A stretch of DNA of 64,000 nucleotides. It comes from Spirochaetales bacterium (GTDB lineage: Bacteria > Spirochaetota > Spirochaetia > DSM-2461). The notes beneath the pieces are model-generated. The model saw nothing but the letters and a program-made list of their open reading frames with translations, was not told the origin of the DNA and ran no database searches. The stretch covers positions 26,091 through 90,090 of the forward strand of contig JAKSCK010000237.1 in NCBI GenBank assembly GCA_022360655.1, given 5' to 3'. A program made the translations under genes and the position numbers. Shown piece after piece: positions 36,501 to 63,014 of this stretch (its first letter is position 1; each line of letters starts with the position of its first letter).

Positions 36501-38321
36501 TTAACCCAAGCGCTTCTCAAGAGCAGCAATCTGGTCAATCAACTCCTGAGGAGTCTTTTCGCCATAGGATTCATAGGTTTCCTTAATGGCGGCCAATTCT
36601 TTCTTCCAACCTTCAGCATCAACGGCCAAAAGAGCGTCCATGTCAGCATCAGTAAGATCAAGACCTTCAATATTGATGTCTTCCTTCTTGGGAAGCTTAC
36701 CAATGGGAGTCTCAACAGCCTCAACAGCATCATCACAGCGCTTGAACACCCACTCCAGAACCCGGCTGTTATCACCGAATCCAGGCCAGATGAACTTGCC
36801 TTCGGGAGATTTGCGGAACCAGTTTGTGAAGAAGATCTTGGGAAGCTTTGCACCCTCGGTCTTACCAATCTTCAACCAGTGGTTGAGGAAGTCAGCAACA
36901 TGGTAACCAATGAAGGGACGCATAGCCATGGGATCACGGCGAACGGTACCAGCTTTGAGGTCAAGAGCAGCAGCGGTAATCTCAGAACCAGCAGCAGAAC
37001 CCATGAAGGTTCCGTGGGTCCAGTCAAAGGCCTCATTCACCAAGGGGATGGTGGAGGGGCGACGACCACCGAAGAGGAAGGCGTCAATGGGAACACCAGC
37101 AGGATCTTCCCAGTTATCAGCAATAGAAGGACAGTTGGAAGCCTTGGCAGCAAATCGAGCATTGGGGTGAGCAGCAGGGGCCTCAGCCGTTGCAGGATCC
37201 CACTCGTTGCCCTTCCAGTCAATCAACTTGCCAGGAGCATCGTAGCCAATGCCTTCCCACCACACATCGCCGTCTTCTGTGAGGGCAACGTTAGTGAAGA
37301 TGGTGTCTTTGGCACAGGAGTGCATGGCGTTGGGGTTGGAATCCATGGATGTACCAGGAGCCACACCAAAGAAGCCAGCCTCGGGGTTGATACCATAGAG
37401 GCGACCATCTTTGCCAAACTTCATCCAGGCAATGTCATCACCAACGGTTTCCACCTTCCAACCGGGGATGGTGGGGATGAGCATGGCCAAGTTGGTTTTA
37501 CCACAAGCGGAAGGGAATGCACCGGTGATGTGCTTCACTTCGCCTTCGGGGCTGGTGAGTTTCAAAATCAGCATATGCTCAGCCATCCAACCCTCATCAC
37601 GGGCCTGAACGGAAGCAATGCGGAGAGCCAGACACTTCTTACCAAGAAGGGCGTTTCCACCATAACCGGAGCCAAAGGACCAGATCTCACGAGTTTCGGG
37701 GAAGTGACAGATGTACTTCTCTTCAACGGGAGCACAGGGCCACTGGCCGTTGTCGCTCTCGCCTTCAGCAAGAGGCTTACCAACGGAGTGAACACAGGGG
37801 ATGAACTCACCATCAGCGCCGAGAACATCGTACACTTTGGGAGTCACACGAGCCATGATGTGCTTGTTGATCACAACGTAAGCGGAATCTGTGATTTCAA
37901 AACCAATCTTTGCAATATCAGAGCCAACAGGGCCCATGGAGAAGGGAATCACGTACATGGTACGGCCCTTCATGCAACCGGCGTATTTGGCCTTCATGAT
38001 TTTCTTGAGTTCGACAGGATCAATCCAGTTGTTGAGGGGACCAGCATCGGCTTCATTCTCAGAAGCAATGTAGGTGCGACTCTCAACACGGGCCACATCA
38101 GAAGGATCAGAACGGAAAAGAAGACTGTTAGGACGCTTCTCGGGGTTCAACCGGGTTGCGAGGCCGCAATCCACCAGTTCCTGGGAAAGACGATCGTACT
38201 CTTCTTTGGAGCCGTCGGCCCAGTAGACTGCATCGGGGGTCATGAGCTCTGCCCATTCTTCGACCCAGGAAACGAGTTTTGCGTGCTTGGTGGGCACGGC
38301 GTTCAGGTAGTTGATTCCCAT
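36501..38321 (-). CDS. pckG: Phosphoenolpyruvate carboxykinase (GTP)
   Basis: [15 protein letters not shown] kinase loop; [38 protein letters not shown]. Confidence 0.94.
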
Positions 38322-38641
38322 TGGGATCCTCCTGTCAGAAATATCAGTGTAAAAGTCTGATTTCCGGTGATATGACCGGAACCGTCATCTTAGTGAAATC
38401 CTTCCAAGTGGTCTAGAGATCAACGAGAGCCAAAAATTTCAAGAAATATTTGTAAATAAGATCAATTTGCGAATAATCAACAAATTCTGGGCCTTTCACT
38501 ATTATATAGAGCCGGGGGGTGGTACAAACAGGGCATTACTCCTTAAAATTAGCCAAATTGGCGCAAAACAAGAGCCGAGTGATTTTGAAACATATTTTCT
38601 GCGCACGGTGCGCCGCGGGCGCGGGAAAACAAGGAGTAACA

Positions 38642-40540
38642 ATGAATCCCAAGTACGATGCCCTTTTAAAAGAGAAAATGTCTGAGAAGAGTTATGAGAA
38701 GCTCACGGCACTGAAGAACCAGAAAGTTTATGACTTTGTGGGTTTGTTTGCTGAGCATTGTAACCCAGCCACCATTTACGTTTGTGATGACAGTGCTGCT
38801 GATGAGGCCTACATCCGTGAGCAGGCTTTGGCAAAGGGTGAAGAACACAAACTGGCAAAAGAGGGCCAAACCATTCACTGGGATGGTTATGGTGATCAGG
38901 CACGTGACAAAGCCAACACCAAATACATTGTGACTCCAGAAAACATGGAGCGCATGAAATCTTTGAATGCTGTTCCCTTTGATGAGGGACAGAAAGAAAT
39001 CATGGAAATTGCCAAGGACAACATGAAGGGCAAAGATGCTGTTGTGAAGTTCTTTGCTGAAGGCCCAACAGGAAGCCCCTTCACCATTCCTTGTATTCAG
39101 TTCACAGATTCCTGGTATGTTGCTCATTCAGAGTCAATTCTTTATCGCCCGGCCTATGATCATTTCCTGAACATGAAGGACGATGAGAAAGATGATATCT
39201 TCCGCTTCATCCATTCTGCTGGTGAGCAGGATGAGCGAGGATGTTCTGTCAATCTTGATAAACGTCGTATCTACATGGATTTGCAGAACAACATGGTGTA
39301 CTCCCAGAATGCACAGTACGCTGGAAACTCTGTTGGTTTGAAAAAACATTCCATGCGCTTGGCCATCAACAAGGCTGGCGAGGAAGGTTGGCTCTGCGAG
39401 CACATGTTTGTGATGGCCGTAGTTGAACCTGAATCCAAACGACAGACCTACTTTGCTGGTGCTTACCCCTCCGCGTGTGGAAAAACATCCACCGCAATGG
39501 TTCCAGGTGAAAAAGTTGTGGGTGACGATATTGCTTACTTCCGCAACATTGATGGTGAATTCCGCGCCGTAAACGTGGAGCAGGGAATCTTTGGTATCAT
39601 CAAGGATGTGAACTCCAGTGATGATCCTGTGATTTTCGAGAACCTCAAGAAGGGTCAGGAACTGATCTTCTCCAACGTTCTTCAGGGTCCCGATAACAAC
39701 CCCTACTGGACCGGTATGGGTGAAGACACTCCGACGGAAGGCAACAACCATCATGGTGCATGGAAATTGGGTGACAAGGATGCCAATGGCAAAGATGTCA
39801 CCATTTCCCATGCCAACAGCCGCTATACCATGCGTCTGGACTACTTAGCCAACTTTGATAAAGAAGGTTTTGAGGCCAAACAGGGTGTAAAGGTTGACGG
39901 TTTGCTTTACGGTGGACGCGATTCTGATACCACGGTTCCTGTGGAAGAATCTCCCTCCTATGCCAGCGGTATTTTATTGAAGGCTGCCACTTTGGAATCG
40001 GAAACCACAGCCGCCACTCTGGGTGCAGAAGGTGTGCGCACAGCAAGTCCCATGGCCAACATGGACTTTGTGTCCTATCCCTTGGGAGAATACACCGCCA
40101 ACAACCTGAAATTCACGGAGGGCATGAAGGAAGAACCAAAAGTCTTCAGCACCAACTACTTTATGCTCAGCCCTGAAGGGAAATTCATGACCAGCAAGCT
40201 GGCCAAGAAAGTCTGGCTTCACTGGGCAGAAGGCCGCGTTCATGGCGAGTACGAAGGATACAAAACTCCCACTGGAACCATCCCCCTCTATGCCGACTTG
40301 AAGAAACTCTTCAAGGATCTGTTGAATGAGGACTTCAGTGAGGAAGACTACACCTATCTCTTCACATTCCGCTGCACCAAGTGGATTGAGAAGCTGGAGA
40401 GAACAAAAGCCTTCTTTGCCAAGATGGACAACAATGTTCCAGCACACATCATTGAAGCCTGGGACAAGGCCATTGCAGAGATTTCTGCCGCCAAAGAGAA
40501 ATATGGCGATCAGATTAAACCTGGAACTTTTAAAGGTTAA
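38642..40540 (+). CDS. Second, divergent phosphoenolpyruvate carboxykinase of GTP type
   Basis: GAYPSACGKTSTAM kinase loop, GDDIAYFRNIDGEFRAVNVEQGIFGI; SD aaggag before MNPKYDALLKEK. Confidence 0.85.
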   Translation: MNPKYDALLKEKMSEKSYEKLTALKNQKVYDFVGLFAEHCNPATIYVCDDSAADEAYIREQALAKGEEHKLAKEGQTIHWDGYGDQARDKANTKYIVTPENMERMKSLNAVPFDEGQKEIMEIAKDNMKGKDAVVKFFAEGPTGSPFTIPCIQFTDSWYVAHSESILYRPAYDHFLNMKDDEKDDIFRFIHSAGEQDERGCSVNLDKRRIYMDLQNNMVYSQNAQYAGNSVGLKKHSMRLAINKAGEEGWLCEHMFVMAVVEPESKRQTYFAGAYPSACGKTSTAMVPGEKVVGDDIAYFRNIDGEFRAVNVEQGIFGIIKDVNSSDDPVIFENLKKGQELIFSNVLQGPDNNPYWTGMGEDTPTEGNNHHGAWKLGDKDANGKDVTISHANSRYTMRLDYLANFDKEGFEAKQGVKVDGLLYGGRDSDTTVPVEESPSYASGILLKAATLESETTAATLGAEGVRTASPMANMDFVSYPLGEYTANNLKFTEGMKEEPKVFSTNYFMLSPEGKFMTSKLAKKVWLHWAEGRVHGEYEGYKTPTGTIPLYADLKKLFKDLLNEDFSEEDYTYLFTFRCTKWIEKLERTKAFFAKMDNNVPAHIIEAWDKAIAEISAAKEKYGDQIKPGTFKG

Positions 40541-50272: not shown

Positions 50273-52558
50273 TCAGTTTTCCTCAACCATCACATTCATT
50301 CCTTCATATGAAAGAAGATTATATTCGCGTTGCTTTTCTTTAGGAGAAATTCCATAGAATCGTTTAAATGCTTTATAAAACGTATTCATGTTTCTGTATC
50401 CACATTTCCGTGCAACATCATTGATTGATTCAGACGAAATCTTGATTAAAGAAAGTGCATGAGTAAGCCGCTTTTCCTCAATGAAGTTTCCAATTGAAAC
50501 GCCATAGTGTTCTTTAAATATGGTGGTGAGATACCCAGGAGTAAAACCAAGTTGATCTGACAACATGGCCACAGAAAGAGAATAATCATGGAAGTTCTCT
50601 TCAATAATATTCCTTAAAGACTCTAAGATTTTATAATTCTTTGTGTTATGGGCACTATGGGTATTCTGATAACTCTTCTCTACAATTGATAGAACTTTAC
50701 TCTTCAACTCAGATATGTTGTCAACAGTTTGCAAATACAAAAAATCATTTATTTCAAGTGCAAGATCATCACTGCTGACATTAATCATCGATAATATCTT
50801 TAGTAAAAGACTAATAATATACAATTTAAACTGCGCTTTATAAACCTGCGACCATTTCTTTTCTGTTTCCAACGAAGGAAACAAGTTCTCAAGTGATTTC
50901 AACAGCTTATTAAACTGTCCTTTCTTTATAAAAAGTAAAATTTCACTTTCTTTATTTAATGGCAGATTCAAGGTTATATCGCTATTACAAATCTCATTGA
51001 AATACGTGATTGTTGATACAGATTTTTGACTAAAATAATTTTTAACAAATAAGGCTTCGCTATAAGAATCCATGATTTGCGAATATGATGATTTAACATC
51101 TCCTATATAGATATTAAACGACTTGCTATCAAACTCATCATTCAGCACTTCATATGTGGAATTCATGCCTTTCTCAATCATTCCTAATTCCGAATTAGAA
51201 AGTGAGAGAATAACGGCAATACTTTGATTATTGGATTCGTAGGTAAGTATTTCTGAATCCATATATCTTTGCATTGATAATTTAAAAATCTCTAAAAATC
51301 GACTACTATTCTCATAATCTTTAATATCATTCGTTAGAATAACAACTCTATAGTTTGTATTGGTCCAATGGATTTCCGCTTCTTCCAGCTCTGATTGGAA
51401 ATCATGAGAAGAAGCAAAGCTTCCTGATAAAAGTTTATATGTAAAATTTGACTTTAAAAGCAGTCTTCTCTTCTCTGTTATTTTTTGCAGTTCCTTTCTG
51501 TCATTATATAAGTTATCTATATCGTCTAACAATGATTTAAACCCTTTATCAATTGACTTAGAGTTTTTACTGCTAATTCTCCTTACCAGCTCTTTGTAAG
51601 GCTTATTTGTAGTGGTATATAAAAAAGTAAAAATACTAAGAAAAATGATAGTAAATATTCCGGTAATAATTGAAATAGCCTTGGGAATATATGCAAGTTG
51701 CTCCTTTATTAATTGAGTCGGTATTGCTTTGACAAGCATCCAGTTACTATCAAGTGAAGAGTCAAAGAAAAAAAGAAAGTTCTTATTATCTTCTAATTTA
51801 TCAAACTGTTTCTCTTGAATATCTTGATAAAAATCACTTTTCGTAGAATCATCAATGTAATCTGAATTTGATTTCTCTACCAATAAATTGTTTTTATAAA
51901 ATATTGCAATAAAACCACACTTTGAAATATCCTGTTCTAGCTGATTCAACATTTCTTTGGAAGAAAACTCAACCATCAAAACACCTTTTTTGTTAATAGA
52001 ATCAGCAGGGAGCTTAAAGGTAAAGAGAACTGTCTTAATTCGATTCCCAAGAGAGTTTATTCGACTACCTACTAAAAAATTATTGCTACTTTTTTCTGAT
52101 TTTAAATAGTATCTCCAGCTCTCATAATCGAATGAGTTAATTTTGAAATGATCATCATACATATATTCTAGCTGTGTTGTTGTATCATTTCCAATATAAG
52201 CTTCAGACTTATAAAAAAGAGTTCCAACATTGACAATAAAAGGGTTTAGAGGAAGAAGAGTATTGTAATATTGACTGTATCCTTTCATGTCCATTACATT
52301 ACTATTCACATCGTTAATATCATATTCATAGAAAGTTTTTGTTGAGGACAAACAATTTACTTGAGCGCAAATCAAAAAAAGATTTTTTATAACTTTTGAA
52401 AATTTTTGTACTTGTGAATGAAATTCTTGGTTCTCAACCTGTGTAAAATACTTATGGATTTCACCATAACCAACACTAAAAAGAAAAGAACCAAAACAAA
52501 CAAAAACTATCAAGATCACAATATATGATATGAAAACTTTATCATACAGTCTTTTCAT
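50273..52558 (-). CDS. Membrane-bound AraC-family regulator with extracytoplasmic sensor
   Basis: N-terminal TM, ~270-aa extracytoplasmic region, second TM, C-terminal AraC HTH (MLSDQLGFTPGYLTTIFKEHYGVSIGNFIEEKRL...VARKCGYRNMNTFYKAFKRFYGISPKEKQ); start trimmed to MKRLYDKV. Confidence 0.88.
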   Translation of the reverse strand: MKRLYDKVFISYIVILIVFVCFGSFLFSVGYGEIHKYFTQVENQEFHSQVQKFSKVIKNLFLICAQVNCLSSTKTFYEYDINDVNSNVMDMKGYSQYYNTLLPLNPFIVNVGTLFYKSEAYIGNDTTTQLEYMYDDHFKINSFDYESWRYYLKSEKSSNNFLVGSRINSLGNRIKTVLFTFKLPADSINKKGVLMVEFSSKEMLNQLEQDISKCGFIAIFYKNNLLVEKSNSDYIDDSTKSDFYQDIQEKQFDKLEDNKNFLFFFDSSLDSNWMLVKAIPTQLIKEQLAYIPKAISIITGIFTIIFLSIFTFLYTTTNKPYKELVRRISSKNSKSIDKGFKSLLDDIDNLYNDRKELQKITEKRRLLLKSNFTYKLLSGSFASSHDFQSELEEAEIHWTNTNYRVVILTNDIKDYENSSRFLEIFKLSMQRYMDSEILTYESNNQSIAVILSLSNSELGMIEKGMNSTYEVLNDEFDSKSFNIYIGDVKSSYSQIMDSYSEALFVKNYFSQKSVSTITYFNEICNSDITLNLPLNKESEILLFIKKGQFNKLLKSLENLFPSLETEKKWSQVYKAQFKLYIISLLLKILSMINVSSDDLALEINDFLYLQTVDNISELKSKVLSIVEKSYQNTHSAHNTKNYKILESLRNIIEENFHDYSLSVAMLSDQLGFTPGYLTTIFKEHYGVSIGNFIEEKRLTHALSLIKISSESINDVARKCGYRNMNTFYKAFKRFYGISPKEKQREYNLLSYEGMNVMVEEN

Positions 52559-52584
52559 GCTTAAATTTACTATAGATTTCATGT

Positions 52585-52621
52585 AAAAACAAGGGATATT
52601 GTCTGATGTCAATATCCCTTG
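52585..52621 (-). terminator. Intrinsic terminator immediately upstream of the AraC sensor gene
   Basis: Minus strand CAAGGGATATTG acatcaga CAATATCCCTTG TTTTT; 12-bp perfect stem. Confidence 0.88.
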
Positions 52622-52820
52622 CCAACTTTATAAGCTCTATAATTAAACTTGTTTTTATTAAATATTTTGTTCGAGCAAAAAACCAGAGTACATCATCTTC
52701 TTATAAATATAGAGAAATAATGCAAGCTTTCTTTGCAACATATTCAACTTATCATTGTATCAAATACTCACACGCATTCCATGCTCAAACACTATCTCTA
52801 TAAATGTAAAATGGACCTAC

Positions 52821-54500
52821 TTATTTATACTGACGGTCATAACCCATTTGAATAACTTCAATTAGCTGATCCATTCCAAGATCTTTAACCTGCTCAAGAT
52901 AAGCATTCCAATCCTCATCACTATTGGGATCCATGTTGCCGGTCACAAAGTTTGCATAGGATTCAGCCTCCCAGAGTCGGAATGTTTCATGCAGATCATT
53001 GCGTAAGGCCAGTTCATCTTCTGTAAAGTTAATTGGAGGAATAGCATAGGGCTTTCCGTAGGGTTCATATGAATGAGCGGCATCAAAAAGAACTTGCTCT
53101 TGGTCAAAACCATCTGCAGCTCCAACGGCGTTACTGAGTCGGAAGAAATTCGACTCAACACCGGGAGTCCCACTTCCCCAGTATTTGTTCTGACTAACAC
53201 CATAAGAGAGAATAATTTTATACCAGGATTCATCACTCAGGAATGAATGAAAGTCACTTGAATCAATGCTCCAATCAACCTCAGGTTCACCTTTGCTTAT
53301 CATTTTTTGCAAGAGCTTTTCTTCGTTATATGTCCCATCGGGATTGTGTCCCAGAGCCATAAGAAAGTCTGCAAGTTTAAAGGCAACTTCTGGGTATTCA
53401 CAGTTCTCAGTAATGATGAAATTGCTAGGATTGGCAGGGGTGTAGTAAGCAATCGTCTGCTGAAGTCCGGTTGGTCCTTTGAGTGGAGCCAGATAAACAA
53501 AATCATTGTATCGTTCGTTTTTACTCGTCAAATCGCAAACTTGAGAAAGAGTCCCTGACGGAACAGCACCAATAAGATTTCCATCCGGATGCTCAATGAG
53601 ACTTTTCACCTGGGATGCAGAGACTGTGAATGCTTCTTTGAAGATCAAATCCTCTTTGTACAGCTTGTTTGCATACTTCAAACCTTCTCGAAAGCCTTCT
53701 TTTGTAATTGAGGTTTGAACAACATCGTCTTCAATGTATAGCTTTGTTTGGCTGATATGCCCATATGGAGAGAATGTGAAGGGGTTCATAAGATAGCCAT
53801 CAAGACGACTATTCCAGGCATGTTTTGCAATCTGTGTCAAAGGAATCTCATCATGAGGGTCCCCATTTCCATTCGCATCCTGTTCTTTAAAGGCCTTCAG
53901 TACCTGATAAAATTCTTCTGTTGTTGTGGGTAATTCAAGCCCTAAATTGTCTAACCATGTTTTGTTTATCAACATTCTCTGCGAATAATTGCAATGGAAA
54001 CATTCGTTGAATTGAGGAAGTCCATAAATCTTACCATCCATGGCACGAAGCTGAGAGGGAACAGTCGGGTCGTACTCAAAGAACTCTTTTATATTGACTC
54101 CTTGCTTCTCTATGTACTCATCAAGTGCAAGAAATGTTCCTCTTTCTCCATAGATTTTTGCGGCATCTGGAGTGACACCCCATCCCATGAAGATATCTGG
54201 CATATTGGCACCAGTAGCAAGTTTTAAGTTGACAATTTCCGGAGCATCTTTGGGGTTAGATTGTTCAAAAACAAGTTTTACGTTTAGATGGTCCTCAATA
54301 TACTTTGTAAACCAGTTCTCATTGAGATCTTCAACCCAGGATTCTGTTCCGGCAAAAACAGTAAAAGTGACTTTCTCGTCTACAAGGGGAAACTCACCGG
54401 GACCACTCACTGTGACATTCTTTCTTTCGTTTTCACCATTTGCAAAAAGTGATGTCATCACCACAAAGAAGCAAAGTCCAAGCGCAAGAATTCTCTTCAT
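52821..54500 (-). CDS. LplA/YtcQ-type ABC transporter substrate-binding protein
   Basis: Signal peptide ending MTSLFANGENERKN; length and pattern of the LplA-type SBP; upstream LplB/YtcP-like permeases. Confidence 0.87.
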   Translation of the reverse strand: MKRILALGLCFFVVMTSLFANGENERKNVTVSGPGEFPLVDEKVTFTVFAGTESWVEDLNENWFTKYIEDHLNVKLVFEQSNPKDAPEIVNLKLATGANMPDIFMGWGVTPDAAKIYGERGTFLALDEYIEKQGVNIKEFFEYDPTVPSQLRAMDGKIYGLPQFNECFHCNYSQRMLINKTWLDNLGLELPTTTEEFYQVLKAFKEQDANGNGDPHDEIPLTQIAKHAWNSRLDGYLMNPFTFSPYGHISQTKLYIEDDVVQTSITKEGFREGLKYANKLYKEDLIFKEAFTVSASQVKSLIEHPDGNLIGAVPSGTLSQVCDLTSKNERYNDFVYLAPLKGPTGLQQTIAYYTPANPSNFIITENCEYPEVAFKLADFLMALGHNPDGTYNEEKLLQKMISKGEPEVDWSIDSSDFHSFLSDESWYKIILSYGVSQNKYWGSGTPGVESNFFRLSNAVGAADGFDQEQVLFDAAHSYEPYGKPYAIPPINFTEDELALRNDLHETFRLWEAESYANFVTGNMDPNSDEDWNAYLEQVKDLGMDQLIEVIQMGYDRQYK

Positions 54501-54535
54501 AAAATTTCTCCTATTTGTATCTGCAAAATGCAGTT

Positions 54536-55453
54536 TTACCCTTTAATAGCTCCAACCATGACACCCTTAACAAAATGTTTTTGTACAAAGGGATAAATCA
54601 ACAACATGGGAATGGAAGCAACAATAATTAGTGAGTATTTCAGCAACTCAGCAAGCCCCTCTTGTGCAGCTAAGGCTTCCACATTCACATTGCTGGTCAT
54701 AGATGCATCAAACTGACTTTGCAAGAGGATTCCCCGAATAACAATTTGTAAAGGTCGAAGGGTAACATCTTGTATATAAATCATTGCATCAAAAAACATA
54801 TTCCAATGCCCCACACTATACAGCAGGGCATTTACTGCAATAATTGCATGGGAAAGTGGTAAGACAATCTTCATTAGAAAATAAATATCACCACATCCAT
54901 CCATCTGTGCAGCTTCAAAAAGTTCTTCCCCAATAGTATGTTTAAAAAAAGTACAAGTAATTATCATATTATAAACACTCATAGCATTCGGAAGCCAAAG
55001 AGCCCACCTTGTGTTGATTAAGTTCAACTGATTAACCAACAAATATGTAGGGATTAATCCACCATTAAAAATCATGGTAAAGATAAAAAGAAACATAAAG
55101 TATTTCTTTGATCTAAAACTTTTTTTAGAAAGAGGATAGGCTGCCAATATCGTGAGGGCAATGTTAATCAATGTTCCAAAAAATGTATTTACAATAGAAT
55201 TATAGTAACCTCTCCATATTTTTGAATCATTAAAAACTGCTTCGTAACCTCTTAGATTAAATTTAACGGGAAAAAGCCATACTTTTCCTGAGGAGACAGC
55301 TGTTGGCTCACTGAAGGAAGCACTGAGAATAAAAATAAGAGGATAGATAACTCCAACAAATGCCAAGAGCAAAAAAAGGAAGTTAAAAGTGTAGAAGAAC
55401 TTATCGCTGAGTGTAGATCTCATCTTCACGTTTTTCATGAATTTTCCTACCAA
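54536..55453 (-). CDS. ABC transporter permease (LplC/YtcP type)
   Basis: ILSASFSEPTAVSSGKVWLFPVKFNLRGYEAVF; EAA loop LFEAAQMDGCGDIYFLMKIVLPLSHAII; ends VKGVMVGAIKG. Confidence 0.92.
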   Translation of the reverse strand: MVGKFMKNVKMRSTLSDKFFYTFNFLFLLLAFVGVIYPLIFILSASFSEPTAVSSGKVWLFPVKFNLRGYEAVFNDSKIWRGYYNSIVNTFFGTLINIALTILAAYPLSKKSFRSKKYFMFLFIFTMIFNGGLIPTYLLVNQLNLINTRWALWLPNAMSVYNMIITCTFFKHTIGEELFEAAQMDGCGDIYFLMKIVLPLSHAIIAVNALLYSVGHWNMFFDAMIYIQDVTLRPLQIVIRGILLQSQFDASMTSNVNVEALAAQEGLAELLKYSLIIVASIPMLLIYPFVQKHFVKGVMVGAIKG

Positions 55454-56367
55454 ATTGAAGTCTTAAAGACTTTCTTTGAGGCCATATTGACAGAGACTAA
55501 AAGAGCAACATTGACAATTGAATTAAGAAAACCTATTGCCGCTGCATATGAAAATTTTGGTAATCCTGTTTTTAAACCAACACGATAGAGATAAGTTGAA
55601 ATAATCTCAGAAGAAATCATATTCAATGGGTTTTGCATCAAAAATATTTTTTCAAAACCAATTTGTAAAAGCTGGCCTACACTAAGAATAAGTAGCGTGA
55701 CCATTGTTGGAGTTATTCCAGGAATATCCACATGAAGGATTCTTTTAAACCTGTTGGCCCCATCTATTGTTGCCACTTCATGCAAAGTTGGATCTACTCC
55801 TGCTAGAGCAGCTAAATAAATAATTGTGCTGTATCCTGCATACTGCCATATACCAGAAACCGTGTAGATTGTAGAAAAATACTTGGGGATTCCCATCAGA
55901 ACTTTTGTTTCAAGGTTAAAAAGTTTTACAAAATGACCATAGGCACCAACGCTTGGGGATAAGAATTGGATGATAATACTAACCATAACAACTGTAGAAA
56001 TAAAATACGGAGCATAGATGGTGAACTGAACAAGTTTCTTCCATGGCTTATTCTTTGTTGCATTGAGAGCCAAGGCTAATAGAATAGGAATAGGAAACCC
56101 ACAAATAAGAGATTGAATACTGATGATGAGAGTATTTTTAATAACTCGCGCAAACATATACGAGTTTATGAATGCTTTAAAGTGTTTTAAGCCCACCCAA
56201 GGACTGTGTAGAATACCAAGATGTGCTTTAAAATCTTTAAAGGCAATCAACAAACCATACATGGGTTGATATTTAAATATTAGCACCCATAAAACGGGTA
56301 GAATGAGTAAGATTAGCAACTGTTTGTTGTTGCGAATGTCATACTGGAGACTTTTAACAAAACGCAT
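55447..56367 (-). CDS. ABC transporter permease (LplB type)
   Basis: FKYQPMYGLLIAFKDFKAHLGILHSPWVGLKHF; EAA loop LHEVATIDGANRFKRILHVDIPGITPTMV. Confidence 0.92.
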   Translation of the reverse strand: MRFVKSLQYDIRNNKQLLILLILPVLWVLIFKYQPMYGLLIAFKDFKAHLGILHSPWVGLKHFKAFINSYMFARVIKNTLIISIQSLICGFPIPILLALALNATKNKPWKKLVQFTIYAPYFISTVVMVSIIIQFLSPSVGAYGHFVKLFNLETKVLMGIPKYFSTIYTVSGIWQYAGYSTIIYLAALAGVDPTLHEVATIDGANRFKRILHVDIPGITPTMVTLLILSVGQLLQIGFEKIFLMQNPLNMISSEIISTYLYRVGLKTGLPKFSYAAAIGFLNSIVNVALLVSVNMASKKVFKTSIW

Positions 56368-57098: not shown

Positions 57099-59285
57099 TC
57101 AATTCGAAAATGTTTCCCGGAACTGAGAGGGTGTTTGTTTGTACGCCTCTTTGAATAAGCGGAAAAAACTTTGCTGATTGGCAAATCCCACCCGGAAAAT
57201 GATGTCATTCACAGATAAGGATGTGGATTTCAGCAGACCTTCCGCTTTCTTTAGGCGAAAATCATTGATATAGCGATGTAAAGGAATTCGGGTTTCCCGT
57301 TTAAACACCCGTAGCATATATGTGGTATTCATGTTCATGGCATCCGCAATCATTTCACTTCCGAGACCCGGATTTTCATAATGATTCATGATGTAAGCAA
57401 TGATGGAAGCAATGGTGTCATGCTCTGTAACTTCGGAATCTTGACCAAGAGCAGCTTGCATTCGAGTGAAGAGATTCACCATGTACTGAGCATCTTCTCT
57501 ATGGGTTTGGCAGGCCCACAAGGACTCCAGGATTCCTTCTAAATCAAATTCTCTTGGTACTCCCACCTTTGCTTGGATTCGCTCAATCAAACCCTCATAA
57601 ACGGCTGTGATCAGCCGGACAAGTGCTCGTTGGTAGAATGCCAAACTGAAATTCAAAAGATCATCCATAAAGCCATTCACACAGGGGTCAATGCTCTCCA
57701 CTTCCTCTTTCAGAATGGCTGAAAGCAAGGCGCGTTCCTGATTCTTAGGATAGATTCCATGGGATTCATGGCGATGTTGAAGATGAGAAAGACTCAAAAT
57801 GGGTTGGAATCGAAATTTTCGCAGGTAGGGGTGAAAGGATTGAATCTGCCGAATCCCATGGCCTAAGTCTTCCAGTCTTACCCCTTCTTTATTGTAGGCC
57901 AGCACCACATCTCCATCCCAAAAAGCTTGGAGTTCCTGTTGAAACGGATGGAGGAGAGCATCCAATTCCTGAGAGTTTCTTTTTTGGAACACAATCAGCT
58001 GGGCATCTTGGGCAAAAGAAAACTGAACAAATCCCCCATCACCTAAAATTCGAGAAAAGGCATTTTGAACAAATTCTGCAATCAGGGGATGAACCCAATT
58101 CTGGACACTCAATACCATTGTATAAAACGGTTCAGAGGCCAAAAGTTGAGGGTGGCATTGACCCAAGATCCTGCCAACATCATCGGAAGAATAGTCGGCA
58201 TAGAAATCTAAGAGGGACATAAAGCGGGAATGAAGAAGAGCATTTCTATCCCGCTCAGTTCGTAGCTCTGCCTGCTCTGCTGATTCAATGAGGGCATGAA
58301 TGGGCTTTCTCATGCTCAGAAGAGAAAACATCGCAATGAGCATTGCAATAAAAAGAACCAGCAAGGAAATGATCAGAATGATGTGTTTTGCATCCCGCGT
58401 TTTGGCTAATAACGCTGGAAGTTCAAGAACCTTGAGAAAGTACCAATCGGTGAGTAGGGGGGACTGGTAGCCCACAACCATCACCTCATCCTCCCCTTGA
58501 TGGATTTTTTGATGAAATTCACTCCCATGGTTCTTCAGAAACTGAGGAAAATTGTGAGTGACCAAGGGGAGGTTCTGGGAGGTTCCAAACATCAATTCAC
58601 CCTGGGATGTCACCACATACAAGGGATGCTCAGGAGTTTGATCCAAAGATGCAATAGCCTCTTTCATCCGGTCTACGGAGACATTGATCACAATGAGGCT
58701 GGCCGTTTCATAGCGTTGTTGATGACTGAAACTCACCACAAAGGAATACACATCGGATTCCAAAACATCATCCGTGAGCATGTCTATTTCATGGATGACT
58801 CTTCGATGAGGGAAATATTTGTTCACACGATTGTGGTTCAAACTTTCATAAAGAAATTCTTTATCAAAAAAATCATCCAAGTCCCACAGAGAAGACACTT
58901 TCAAGTTTTTCCCAGAGTAGTACACCATCTGTGTTTTCCGATTCAGCACATAGATGGAATGCACTTCCTTTCCAATGCCCTGAAAACTTTGTAGCGTTCT
59001 CATGGCAAAGTCACTTTCCATCTGAGACACGTTGGAAAAATACAACAGCTTTTGAATATTGAGATTTGTATGCAATTGAATGGCCAACTCTCGTGCCTCT
59101 TCTATCACCAATTCGCTGGCATAAGAGGATCTTTTCAAATTGGTCATCTCTGATTCCAGAGCCTGATCAATCAGATACTTCTCACCAAAATAAAGCATAA
59201 GCCCAGAATTCACTGTGAGGGTCACAAGAATGGTGGCCACAGTGATGATGAGGATTTTAAGAAAAATGGATTCTTTTTTTATCAT
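57099..59285 (-). CDS. Membrane-bound AraC-family regulator with extracytoplasmic sensor (paralogous type)
   Basis: Two TM segments flanking a sensor region; C-terminal AraC HTH (MIADAMNMNTTYMLRVFKRETRIPLHRYINDFRL...IIFRVGFANQQSFFRLFKEAYKQTPSQFRE). Confidence 0.88.
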   Translation of the reverse strand: MIKKESIFLKILIITVATILVTLTVNSGLMLYFGEKYLIDQALESEMTNLKRSSYASELVIEEARELAIQLHTNLNIQKLLYFSNVSQMESDFAMRTLQSFQGIGKEVHSIYVLNRKTQMVYYSGKNLKVSSLWDLDDFFDKEFLYESLNHNRVNKYFPHRRVIHEIDMLTDDVLESDVYSFVVSFSHQQRYETASLIVINVSVDRMKEAIASLDQTPEHPLYVVTSQGELMFGTSQNLPLVTHNFPQFLKNHGSEFHQKIHQGEDEVMVVGYQSPLLTDWYFLKVLELPALLAKTRDAKHIILIISLLVLFIAMLIAMFSLLSMRKPIHALIESAEQAELRTERDRNALLHSRFMSLLDFYADYSSDDVGRILGQCHPQLLASEPFYTMVLSVQNWVHPLIAEFVQNAFSRILGDGGFVQFSFAQDAQLIVFQKRNSQELDALLHPFQQELQAFWDGDVVLAYNKEGVRLEDLGHGIRQIQSFHPYLRKFRFQPILSLSHLQHRHESHGIYPKNQERALLSAILKEEVESIDPCVNGFMDDLLNFSLAFYQRALVRLITAVYEGLIERIQAKVGVPREFDLEGILESLWACQTHREDAQYMVNLFTRMQAALGQDSEVTEHDTIASIIAYIMNHYENPGLGSEMIADAMNMNTTYMLRVFKRETRIPLHRYINDFRLKKAEGLLKSTSLSVNDIIFRVGFANQQSFFRLFKEAYKQTPSQFRETFSN

Positions 59286-59496
59286 AGGAATGCCTTCAGC
59301 CTCATGAAAATCATGTTGGACCGAATCAGAATATCATCTGTTTTTTCAAATCTATCGTATTCATGGACAAACTTAGAACTCACTTTACCTGGGTTTTCTG
59401 AATTCGCAAGCCCAACAAATCATTGCATAATTTAGAAATAATAGATATAAAAAATTTCATACCATCATTCATCATCCAGGTCATTGCTCTCACCCA

Positions 59497-59642
59497 CAAC
59501 TCTTAAATTTGAACACCAACTCATAATTCAATAGTTTTTTTGCTTCCCAAGGGGAACCTATGCAATTGGGATGCCCAATCCGCAATTGTGAGTTGAAGTC
59601 CATTTGTCACCTCTCAGATACTGCCACTGAGAGGAATCACCA
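59497..59642 (+). promoter_or_regulatory. Structured leader / operator region upstream of an LplB-type permease
   Basis: CAACTCTTAAATT and CAACTCATAATT direct repeats 20 bp apart, inverted AATTGTGAGTTG, two enclosed hairpins, and CCTCTCA...TGAGAGG covering the SD. Confidence 0.55.
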
Positions 59643-60539
59643 GTGAAGAACAAAAGTCAAACCCTTCTCCTTATGGCCCTTCCCGGAATCTTATACTTTC
59701 TCATCTTTCACTACATTCCCATGATTGGAATTGTTCTTTCCTTCAAAAAATTTCACCCTGCTCTGGGCATTCTAGGAAGTCCATGGATTGGAATGAAAAA
59801 TTTTGAGTTCATTCTGCGTTCTGGAGCCTTGGGCCGTGTCACCATCAATACCATTCTCTACAATATTATTTTCTTTCTCACCAATGATGTTTTGGCTGTA
59901 TTTCTGGCCATCTTCATTGCTGATATGGCAAAGCGATCCATCCAGAAATTTTACCAATCCATCCTTTTTCTTCCCTATTTTTTGTCCTTTGTCGTGTTGG
60001 GTGTTTTTGCGTACAACTTGATGAACTACGAATACGGCGTCATCAACACATTGTTGCAATCTCTGGGAATGCATCCGGTGGATTTCTACAACACCAAAGG
60101 ACTGTGGTACTTCATTCTTCCACTCTTCAATATTTGGAAGTACGTGGGCTACTCCTCCATCATCTACATGGCCGCCATTGTGGGCATTGAGCAAGAACAG
60201 TTTGAAGCGGCTCGTATTGATGGAGCCACAAAATGGCAAACCGTGAAATCCATTGTTATACCGGCCGTCATCCCCACATTTGTGGTGCTCCTCCTCTTCC
60301 GTGTGGGGCAAATGATGCGGGGACAGTTTGACCTGTTCTACAACCTCGTTGGCAACAACAGTCCCCTCTACGACACCACGGATGTGGTGGATACCTTTGT
60401 GTTTAGAGCCCTCGTCAACAATTTTGATATTGGAATTGCCACGGCCACAGGATTCTATCAATCCGTGTTTGGCCTCTTTCTCGTTCTGGGTGTGAATGCT
60501 CTCGTTCGCGCCATCAACAAAGAAAACTCTCTGTTTTAA
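59643..60539 (+). CDS. ABC transporter permease (LplB type)
   Basis: FHYIPMIGIVLSFKKFHPALGILGSPWIGMKNFEFILRS; EAA loop QFEAARIDGATKWQTVKSIVIPAVIPTFV; GTG start preceded by gagagg SD. Confidence 0.92.
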   Translation: MKNKSQTLLLMALPGILYFLIFHYIPMIGIVLSFKKFHPALGILGSPWIGMKNFEFILRSGALGRVTINTILYNIIFFLTNDVLAVFLAIFIADMAKRSIQKFYQSILFLPYFLSFVVLGVFAYNLMNYEYGVINTLLQSLGMHPVDFYNTKGLWYFILPLFNIWKYVGYSSIIYMAAIVGIEQEQFEAARIDGATKWQTVKSIVIPAVIPTFVVLLLFRVGQMMRGQFDLFYNLVGNNSPLYDTTDVVDTFVFRALVNNFDIGIATATGFYQSVFGLFLVLGVNALVRAINKENSLF

Positions 60540-60550
60540 GGACCATACAC

Positions 60551-61444
60551 ATGATGCTGAGCACCAAAACAGGAATGTCTGATTTCATCTATAAACTCAC
60601 CAGCTATGTTGTTGTGACGGCGGTGGCCCTCCTCTGCCTACTCCCGGTCATACTTGTCTTTTCCGCATCCTTTTCATCGGAAGAGTCCATCTACCAATAT
60701 GGCTATACCCTCTTTCCCAAGAGCTTTTCTTTGGAGGCATATCGCATTGTTTTTGAGTCGCCCCAAGCCCTACTCGGAGCCTATGGCGTCACATTGATTG
60801 TGACAGGAGTAGGAACCCTTCTTGGACTTCTCATCACCAGTCTCTTGGCCTATGTGATTTGGAGAAAGGACTTCCCCTACAGAAATCACTTGGCCTTTTT
60901 TATCTATTTCACCAGCATCTTTTCTGGTGGGCTGGTACCCCTCTACATCTGGATAGTTCGTTATCTTGAAATCAAAGACACCCTCTGGGCTCTCATTCTT
61001 CCTAATCTCACCAATGCCTGGAACATTTTGATTTTTCGCTCCTTTCTCAATGCCACTCCAGCCTCTCTTGTGGAAGCGGCAAAAATTGATGGGGCTGGGG
61101 ACTTCACCATCTACAGACGCGTCATCCTCCCAGTGGCCATACCAGGATTAGCCGTTGTGGGCATGTTCCAAGCTCTGTACTACTGGAACGATTGGTACTT
61201 GGCCAAACTCTACATTGATAGCGAACATCTCTACCCCCTCCAGTTCTTTTTGTACCGTATTTTGAACAATCTTCAGGCCATGCAAGAGGCCATTGCCAGT
61301 GCAGGGATTCCCATCCCGGACATGCCCTCACAAAGTCTCAAAATGGCCATGACCATGCTGGTGGCCACCCCTGTCTTCTTTCTCTTTCCCTTTGTTCAAC
61401 GATTTTTAGTGAAGGGAATCACTGTTGGTTCGGTAAAAGGCTAG
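60551..61444 (+). CDS. ABC transporter permease (LplC/YtcP type)
   Basis: ASFSSEESIYQYGYTLFPKSFSLEAYRIVF; EAA loop LVEAAKIDGAGDFTIYRRVILPVAIPGLA; ends VKGITVGSVKG. Confidence 0.92.
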   Translation: MMLSTKTGMSDFIYKLTSYVVVTAVALLCLLPVILVFSASFSSEESIYQYGYTLFPKSFSLEAYRIVFESPQALLGAYGVTLIVTGVGTLLGLLITSLLAYVIWRKDFPYRNHLAFFIYFTSIFSGGLVPLYIWIVRYLEIKDTLWALILPNLTNAWNILIFRSFLNATPASLVEAAKIDGAGDFTIYRRVILPVAIPGLAVVGMFQALYYWNDWYLAKLYIDSEHLYPLQFFLYRILNNLQAMQEAIASAGIPIPDMPSQSLKMAMTMLVATPVFFLFPFVQRFLVKGITVGSVKG

Positions 61445-61484: not shown

Positions 61485-63014
61485 ATGAAAAGAGGAGCTG
61501 CACTGTTGTTCATGGCCGTTTTGGTCATCACCTCTGTGTTTGCCAATGGCCGCGCAGAAGAGGCATCGGAAAACGAATTTGTTGAACTCAAAATGTACCT
61601 TGTTGGCGACACTGTTCCTGACTATGACATGATGCTGGATGAACTCAACGTGCTGATGGAAGAGGATATCAATGCCTCTCTTGACGTCAACTTCACCACC
61701 TGGGTGGACTGGCAAACAAAACTTCGTCTCATCCTATCTTCAGGAGAGAAAGTGGACCTGGTTCACATGGCTCCCTGGGGAATCTACAGTGAGCAGGCCC
61801 AAGCCGGCAGCCTGATGGACATTCGGAACCTGGCTCCAACCTACGCTCCAGAAACCTGGAACAGCTACAATCCTGACATTCTTAAGCAAACCGAAATCAA
61901 TGGTGGAGTGTACATGATGCCCTTCCGTTACACCGAACCCATTGGCCAGGGGATTGTGTACAGGAAAGACCTGGCCAAGAAGTATGGCATCAATGAAGTC
62001 AACAGCACCGAATCCCTCATGGCCCTCCTCAAAGCCGTCCATGACAATGAGGCCATGGTTCCCTTCAATGCAGGTGAATTTGATCTTACCGTTTGGATTG
62101 GAATGGCTGGAATGATTCAAAACAGCCGCCCCCAAAGTGCCTTCAAAGTACTGTTGGAGAATACAGAAGGGGTGATTGCCTATGTGAACTATGATCAGCC
62201 GGAAACCATTCTCTATGACTATGAGAGTGCCTACTACAAAGAAACCATGGATTTCATGCGCACCATGTACAATGAAGAACTCATTCCCCGGAATGTGCTC
62301 TCCAACACCATTGGTTCTCGGGAAGCCTTCCTGGCCGGCAAAAGTGCAATGACCACCCTTAACCCCCTCAATGCCAATGAAGAATTCCAAAAAATCCAAA
62401 ACTCCAATCCCGAATGGGAACTGGGCTATTGGCTCCCCATGACCACCATGGCCAGCCATGAAAAAGCTCCAGCCATCAACAACGGGATGTCCATTCCCAC
62501 CGCTTCAGAGAACCCCGAACGCGCCCTGATGCTCCTTGAAAAACTCCACCAAGATCAGCGTTACCATGACCTCACCACCTACGGAGTTCAGGGAGTGCAC
62601 TGGGAATTAACAAGTGATGGTGAAATCACCGCTCCTCAGGGGTTGGATTTGAGTGACTCAGGATTCCAATGGGATCGTCCCTGTCCTTGGGGCTGGCGAG
62701 AAGAAAAGTTCTATCGCCTCAATGTCTTAAAATCCCCCTCTGTTTGGGGAGAAGTCAAAGCCTCTCAAGAAACCATGTATGACATAGGGGTGGAACGAAA
62801 ATGGACCGATTTTACCTTTGACAAGTCCAATGTCAGCACCGAAATTTCCGCCCTCAACACTGTGCGCACAGGTGTTTTCTCCGCACTTTCTTGGGGCTTA
62901 ATGGATGTGGAGGAAGGTTACCAAGAGCTGATTGATGACTATGACAATGCGGGAATTGAAACCGTCAAACAAGAGTTAGAAGATCAGTGGTCAGCTTATC
63001 TCGCTGGAAACTAA
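61485..63014 (+). CDS. LplA-type ABC transporter substrate-binding protein
   Basis: Signal peptide ending ITSVFANGRAEEAS; ends with the DNAGIETVKQELEDQWSAYLAGN type tail of these SBPs. Confidence 0.88.
   Translation: MKRGAALLFMAVLVITSVFANGRAEEASENEFVELKMYLVGDTVPDYDMMLDELNVLMEEDINASLDVNFTTWVDWQTKLRLILSSGEKVDLVHMAPWGIYSEQAQAGSLMDIRNLAPTYAPETWNSYNPDILKQTEINGGVYMMPFRYTEPIGQGIVYRKDLAKKYGINEVNSTESLMALLKAVHDNEAMVPFNAGEFDLTVWIGMAGMIQNSRPQSAFKVLLENTEGVIAYVNYDQPETILYDYESAYYKETMDFMRTMYNEELIPRNVLSNTIGSREAFLAGKSAMTTLNPLNANEEFQKIQNSNPEWELGYWLPMTTMASHEKAPAINNGMSIPTASENPERALMLLEKLHQDQRYHDLTTYGVQGVHWELTSDGEITAPQGLDLSDSGFQWDRPCPWGWREEKFYRLNVLKSPSVWGEVKASQETMYDIGVERKWTDFTFDKSNVSTEISALNTVRTGVFSALSWGLMDVEEGYQELIDDYDNAGIETVKQELEDQWSAYLAGN

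Follow-up and report, generated by a model that had tools for sequence, protein, structure and literature searches.

A probably masked Shine-Dalgarno sequence, an overlapping short reading frame and candidate operator repeats upstream of an LplB-type permease gene in a Spirochaetales bacterium

The leader of the LplB-type permease gene described here more likely acts through a tiny upstream open reading frame (uORF) or through repeats bound by a regulator, or is partly the product of chance, than as a ligand-sensing riboswitch. The best-supported mechanism, which we put forward tentatively, is that translation of lplB would be coupled to that of the overlapping uORF, whose ribosomes would open a hairpin over the lplB Shine-Dalgarno (SD) sequence; an AraC-type operator function of the repeats and a chance origin of the features follow close behind. 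The hairpin is real and its setting is ordinary.

The locus and its features

The window, a stretch of 64,000 nucleotides, contains an lplB operon that is separated from a divergent AraC-family regulator gene by an intergenic region of 357 nt. GTG 59643 is the sole possible start of lplB, because an in-frame stop lies just 5' of it. The permease has at least 39 matches in its own genome, and its closest homologues outside that genome are 44-51% identical. The features are as follows:

57099-59285 (-): AraC-family regulator, divergent; ORF with a membrane sensor-like N-terminus (Pfam HTH_18, E=3.1e-22, and HTH_AraC)
59286-59642: divergent intergenic region, 357 nt, AraC-family regulator gene on one side and lplB operon on the other
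59479-59492 (+): alternative long-range anti-SD, pairs with 59628-59641 (P 0.25-0.41 if the transcription start site, TSS, lies upstream)
59497-59508 (+): first copy of the repeat, CAACTCTTAAAT, possible operator half-site
59517-59528 (+): second copy of the repeat, CAACTCATAATT, at 20 bp from the first and forming the left arm of the 12-bp helix
59544-59556 (+): hairpin 1, UUCCC-AAG-GGGAA, 3' side overlapping the uORF SD
59560-59646 (+): uORF of 28 codons, MQLGCPIRNCELKSICHLSDTATERNHQ, ATG at 59560, TGA overlapping the lplB GTG (GTGA)
59565-59579 (+): hairpin 2, AUUGGG-AUG-CCCAAU (P ~0.75 in long transcripts, 0.02 with a TSS at 59540)
59584-59595 (-): third copy of the repeat, in inverted orientation, forming the right arm of the 12-bp helix
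59610-59634 (+): SD-sequestering hairpin, CCUCUCAG-N9-CUGAGAGG (computed fold)
59643-60539 (+): LplB-type permease, operon gene 1, GTG start (Pfam BPD_transp_1)
60551-61444 (+): lplC, second permease of the operon, after lplB
61485-63014 (+): solute-binding protein, operon gene 3 (Pfam SBP_bac_1/DUF3502)

Adjoining this locus at 50273-56367 (-) is a second set, with an AraC-type regulator, two permeases and a large solute-binding protein that resembles a lipoprotein (52821-54500) and matches no Pfam family at 0.001. Two solute-binding protein paralogues stand in tandem near the closest lplB paralogue of the same genome (G000:C70:60349-63351; L091, L092). Elsewhere in the window two adjacent divergent genes, 36501-38321 (-) and 38519-40540 (+), both resemble GTP-type phosphoenolpyruvate carboxykinases when their translations are inspected by eye.

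The SD hairpin and the overlapping uORF

The arms CCUCUCAG (59610-59617) and CUGAGAGG (59627-59634) form a hairpin of 8 bp with a loop of 9 nt and a computed energy of -11.2 kcal/mol; the pairing had been recognised in the first-pass annotation, which gave it 7 bp. The SD that it covers is weak (duplex -6.0 kcal/mol) and precedes a GTG start. With transcription starting at 59605 or anywhere upstream of it, the lplB SD nucleotides, except the last one or two, are ~0% unpaired, and the computation thus backs the earlier proposal that a strong local hairpin sequesters the SD. Against chance it is the strongest of the pairings: with the SD kept fixed the hairpin is matched by 5 of 2000 shuffles, a chance estimate that, like all others given here, is post hoc and was made after the features had been seen. 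The hairpin is unusual and not exceptional, because 11 of 341 sampled gene starts of the same genome carry one over the SD at -11.2 kcal/mol or below, the sampled starts having been assigned by script, so that some are wrong. The alternatives of SD pairing computed for the ligand-free RNA, the local hairpin and the partner at 59479-59492, are both SD-closed; as the latter is the sole alternative partner, no SD-open state is visible. Masking of the lplB SD by the hairpin is plausible on these folds. A terminator function was considered and rejected, since no U-run follows the hairpin on either strand.

The uORF, which the earlier feature list missed together with the third repeat copy, has the anatomy looked for in translational coupling. 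Its stop TGA (59644-59646) overlaps the lplB GTG (59643-59645), it possesses an SD of its own, AAGGGGAA (59549-59556), with a duplex energy of -7.4 kcal/mol that is stronger than that of lplB, and the lplB SD hairpin lies wholly inside it; the uORF SD in turn overlaps the 3' side of hairpin 1. Leaders of 100 nt or more were sampled from the same genome, and of these 188 this is the only one with an ATG-started, SD-bearing uORF overlapping the start (6 of 2000 shuffles); an overlapping uORF of any kind occurs in 22. The codon usage of the uORF is not gene-like, being worse than that of 99% of same-length gene pieces. Only two leaders of homologous operons, from sister genomes (L004, L005), carry an ATG-started uORF (10 codons, own SD) that overlaps the lplB start as ATGA, and most other homologous lplB leaders have no overlapping uORF. 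That the uORF is a frameshifted lplB N-terminus was rejected, as its peptide is by eye unlike the N-termini of the homologues.

Under the coupling mechanism the hairpin at 59610-59634 would block the SD of the GTG-started lplB, transcription would begin upstream of ~59549, and ribosomes translating 59560-59646 would run through the hairpin, most likely opening it. They would stop at the TGA overlapping the GTG, so that lplB would be translated mainly by coupling or reinitiation. Because the uORF SD lies within hairpin 1, the control point would be initiation at the uORF, and the upstream CAACTC repeats would be a separate feature, probably acting at the level of DNA. In favour of this mechanism stand the strong hairpin over a weak SD and a GTG, seldom matched in shuffles, the rare uORF around it with its stronger SD and overlapping stop, the short overlapping uORFs of the two sister genomes, and the leader of iraD in Escherichia coli, which has the same anatomy. 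On the other side stand the codon usage of the uORF, a top-scoring promoter whose start at ~59629 would drop both uORF and hairpin, and the apparent absence of the hairpin from the other homologous leaders and of an overlapping uORF from most of them.

In the iraD leader translational coupling was demonstrated for a structure that sequesters the SD together with a short overlapping ORF, and binding of CsrA at the uORF SD was shown as well (PMC5574718). The likeness extends to the structure over the SD, the short-uORF stop overlapping the start and the uORF SD as a possible control point; the difference is that CsrA is here a candidate known from its gene, and GGA motifs are mostly located in stems and not in loops. 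The genome does encode CsrA (G000:C163:4491-4646, L094; E=3.2e-23), a possible trans-acting regulator of leader uORFs. In Salmonella the small ORF mgtQ 5' of mgtB combines alternative stem-loops with acidic codons that destabilise the ribosome (PMC8092293). It resembles the present case in that a small ORF precedes a transporter gene with its ribosome-binding region in secondary structure, and differs in its alternative stem-loops, whereas no alternative SD-open state was found here.

The junction and the riboswitch question

Upstream of the SD hairpin a 12-bp helix with one G-U (59517-59528/59584-59595) encloses hairpin 1 (UUCCC/GGGAA) and hairpin 2 (AUUGGG/CCCAAU), all of them present as originally described. 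The annotation had seen in this the layout of a junction plus expression platform, in which a three-way junction senses something and governs the SD hairpin. We consider this very unlikely. Junction and SD hairpin do fold computationally, and 59497-59642 reaches z = -2.7, although only with both ends fitted to the structure; with less fitted ends (59497-59660) the minimum free energy is not exceptional (z = -1.43; 16 of 200 shuffles are as good). The closing helix is near chance level: helices of at least 12 bp arise in 49 of 300 dinucleotide-shuffled intergenic regions (16%), and in 18 if no more than one G-U is allowed. Hairpins 1 and 2 have a probability of only ~0.75. The helix forms with P 0.96-1.0 in the computed ensembles, independently of the SD hairpin; since the two share no nucleotides and the junction folds alongside, no switching link between them is visible, and the computed folds contain no SD-open state for the junction to govern.

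Comparative searches point in the same direction. Rfam gave 0 matches at gathering score in the window, in agreement with the earlier remark that no known class was recognised, and otherwise only two chance matches to eukaryotic families (E 0.22 and 2.6), so that the leader fits no conserved aptamer model of any Rfam class. A single-sequence covariance model of the element was run against 26 genomes of the family, where it recovered nothing but the element, and against 395 genomes of the class, where it added one weak match (E = 0.03), as chance gives and hence no convincing second copy. Blast found no DNA-level homologue besides the element itself in 393 genomes of the phylum; a scan of contigs returned one distant relative with 32% identity. 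A block, GGAACCTATG, in common with a related intergenic region (L003) was dismissed as chance, as its AATT spacing differs and its 10-mer recurs elsewhere in the window.

The annotation had itself named a lack of conserved pairing in orthologous lplB leaders as evidence against its reading, and such pairing is absent from the leaders compared: none of 23 homologous ones (36-51% protein identity, a few start codons uncertain) carries an SD hairpin of similar strength, the strongest among them being -3.9 kcal/mol. Neither the covariance model nor these leaders revealed structure conserved with covariation in relatives. Because the homologues are so distant, the 23 leaders do not decisively counter a lineage-specific element. 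One such element can be conceived, an RNA acting in cis whose junction helix would let a metabolite or protein govern initiation at the 28-codon uORF, and hence coupled translation of the sugar-transport operon; we consider it highly improbable too. The SD-sequestering riboswitches of Rfam are similar in placing the SD in a hairpin 3' of a junction-like fold, and differ from this leader, which shows no Rfam family match, no covariation and, in the computed folds, no alternative open state. The ligand-sensing reading is thus unsupported. The practical lesson is that a leader should be checked for short ORFs overlapping the start and for operator repeats before it is named a riboswitch.

Repeats, promoters and the weighing of alternatives

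The motif CAACTCNNAATT occurs in three copies: two make up the arms of the 12-bp helix, and another lies 20 bp upstream (59497) as a direct repeat. Standing beside a divergent AraC-family gene, the helix arms may be DNA operator half-sites, which suggests that the RNA helix would be a by-product. In AraC-family operators such as araI1-I2, half-sites recur in direct orientation at a distance of about two helical turns, usually ~21 bp. The direct repeats found here have about that distance and likewise lie next to an AraC-family gene (HTH_AraC); they differ in the 20-bp spacing and the distant inverted third copy, and are candidate sites.

A reading of the inverted repeat as DNA, with the half-sites at 59497, 59517 and, inverted, 59584 serving the divergent regulator in lplB transcription, perhaps by looping, is possible, though somewhat doubtful. 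It draws on the direct-plus-inverted set of three copies (6 of 300 shuffles, post hoc) with its third copy upstream, on the divergent AraC gene and on copy 3 abutting the best promoter candidate, TTGAAG-18-GATACT, while the other 3 exact matches of the motif in the genome are at chance level. The spacing, however, is one off the usual value, promoter scores are at chance level, and a search of 395 genomes for an orthologous regulator (E<=1e-60), whose sites could have been compared, found none. AraC-type genes also stand beside three other homologous permeases, with HTH domains of only 29-34% identity. The literature was searched for ABC transporters with AraC half-sites and for spirochaetal lplB/AraC, with no result. 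An operator function and the coupling mechanism are mutually compatible.

About as probable as the operator is a chance origin: the leader would be moderately structured and nothing more, its pairings and short ORF having arisen by chance in the 357 nt between the divergent genes, with the TSS possibly at ~59629. The features are individually common or only modestly rare and lack conservation, equally strong SD hairpins and some overlapping uORF being found in the samples of gene starts and leaders described above. Against chance, the SD hairpin and the SD-bearing overlapping uORF each occur in ~0.3% of shuffles, and they fit together. On the + strand the three sigma-70-like sites with the highest scores would start transcription at ~59629, 59544 and 59438, in order of score. 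The first keeps neither uORF nor SD hairpin, the second keeps both, and the junction is complete only with the third, the left helix arm lying outside the RNA for the two best. As all scores are near chance, the position of the TSS is decisive among the leader models.

If coupling through the uORF were confirmed, this would be a further example of a sugar ABC operon that a hairpin keeps shut until a uORF is translated; the genome has dozens of LplB-type permease genes. Even then no new class of RNA would be established.

In seven related genomes (L041-L047) the divergent neighbour of lplB is a conserved gene that, judged by eye, may encode a glycoside hydrolase. The region 60-240 nt upstream of lplB contains in all of them an invariant ATTTCAAATTG ~63-88 nt before the start, with an inverted TTTGAAAT-like partner further upstream, and the two make a good candidate operator pair.
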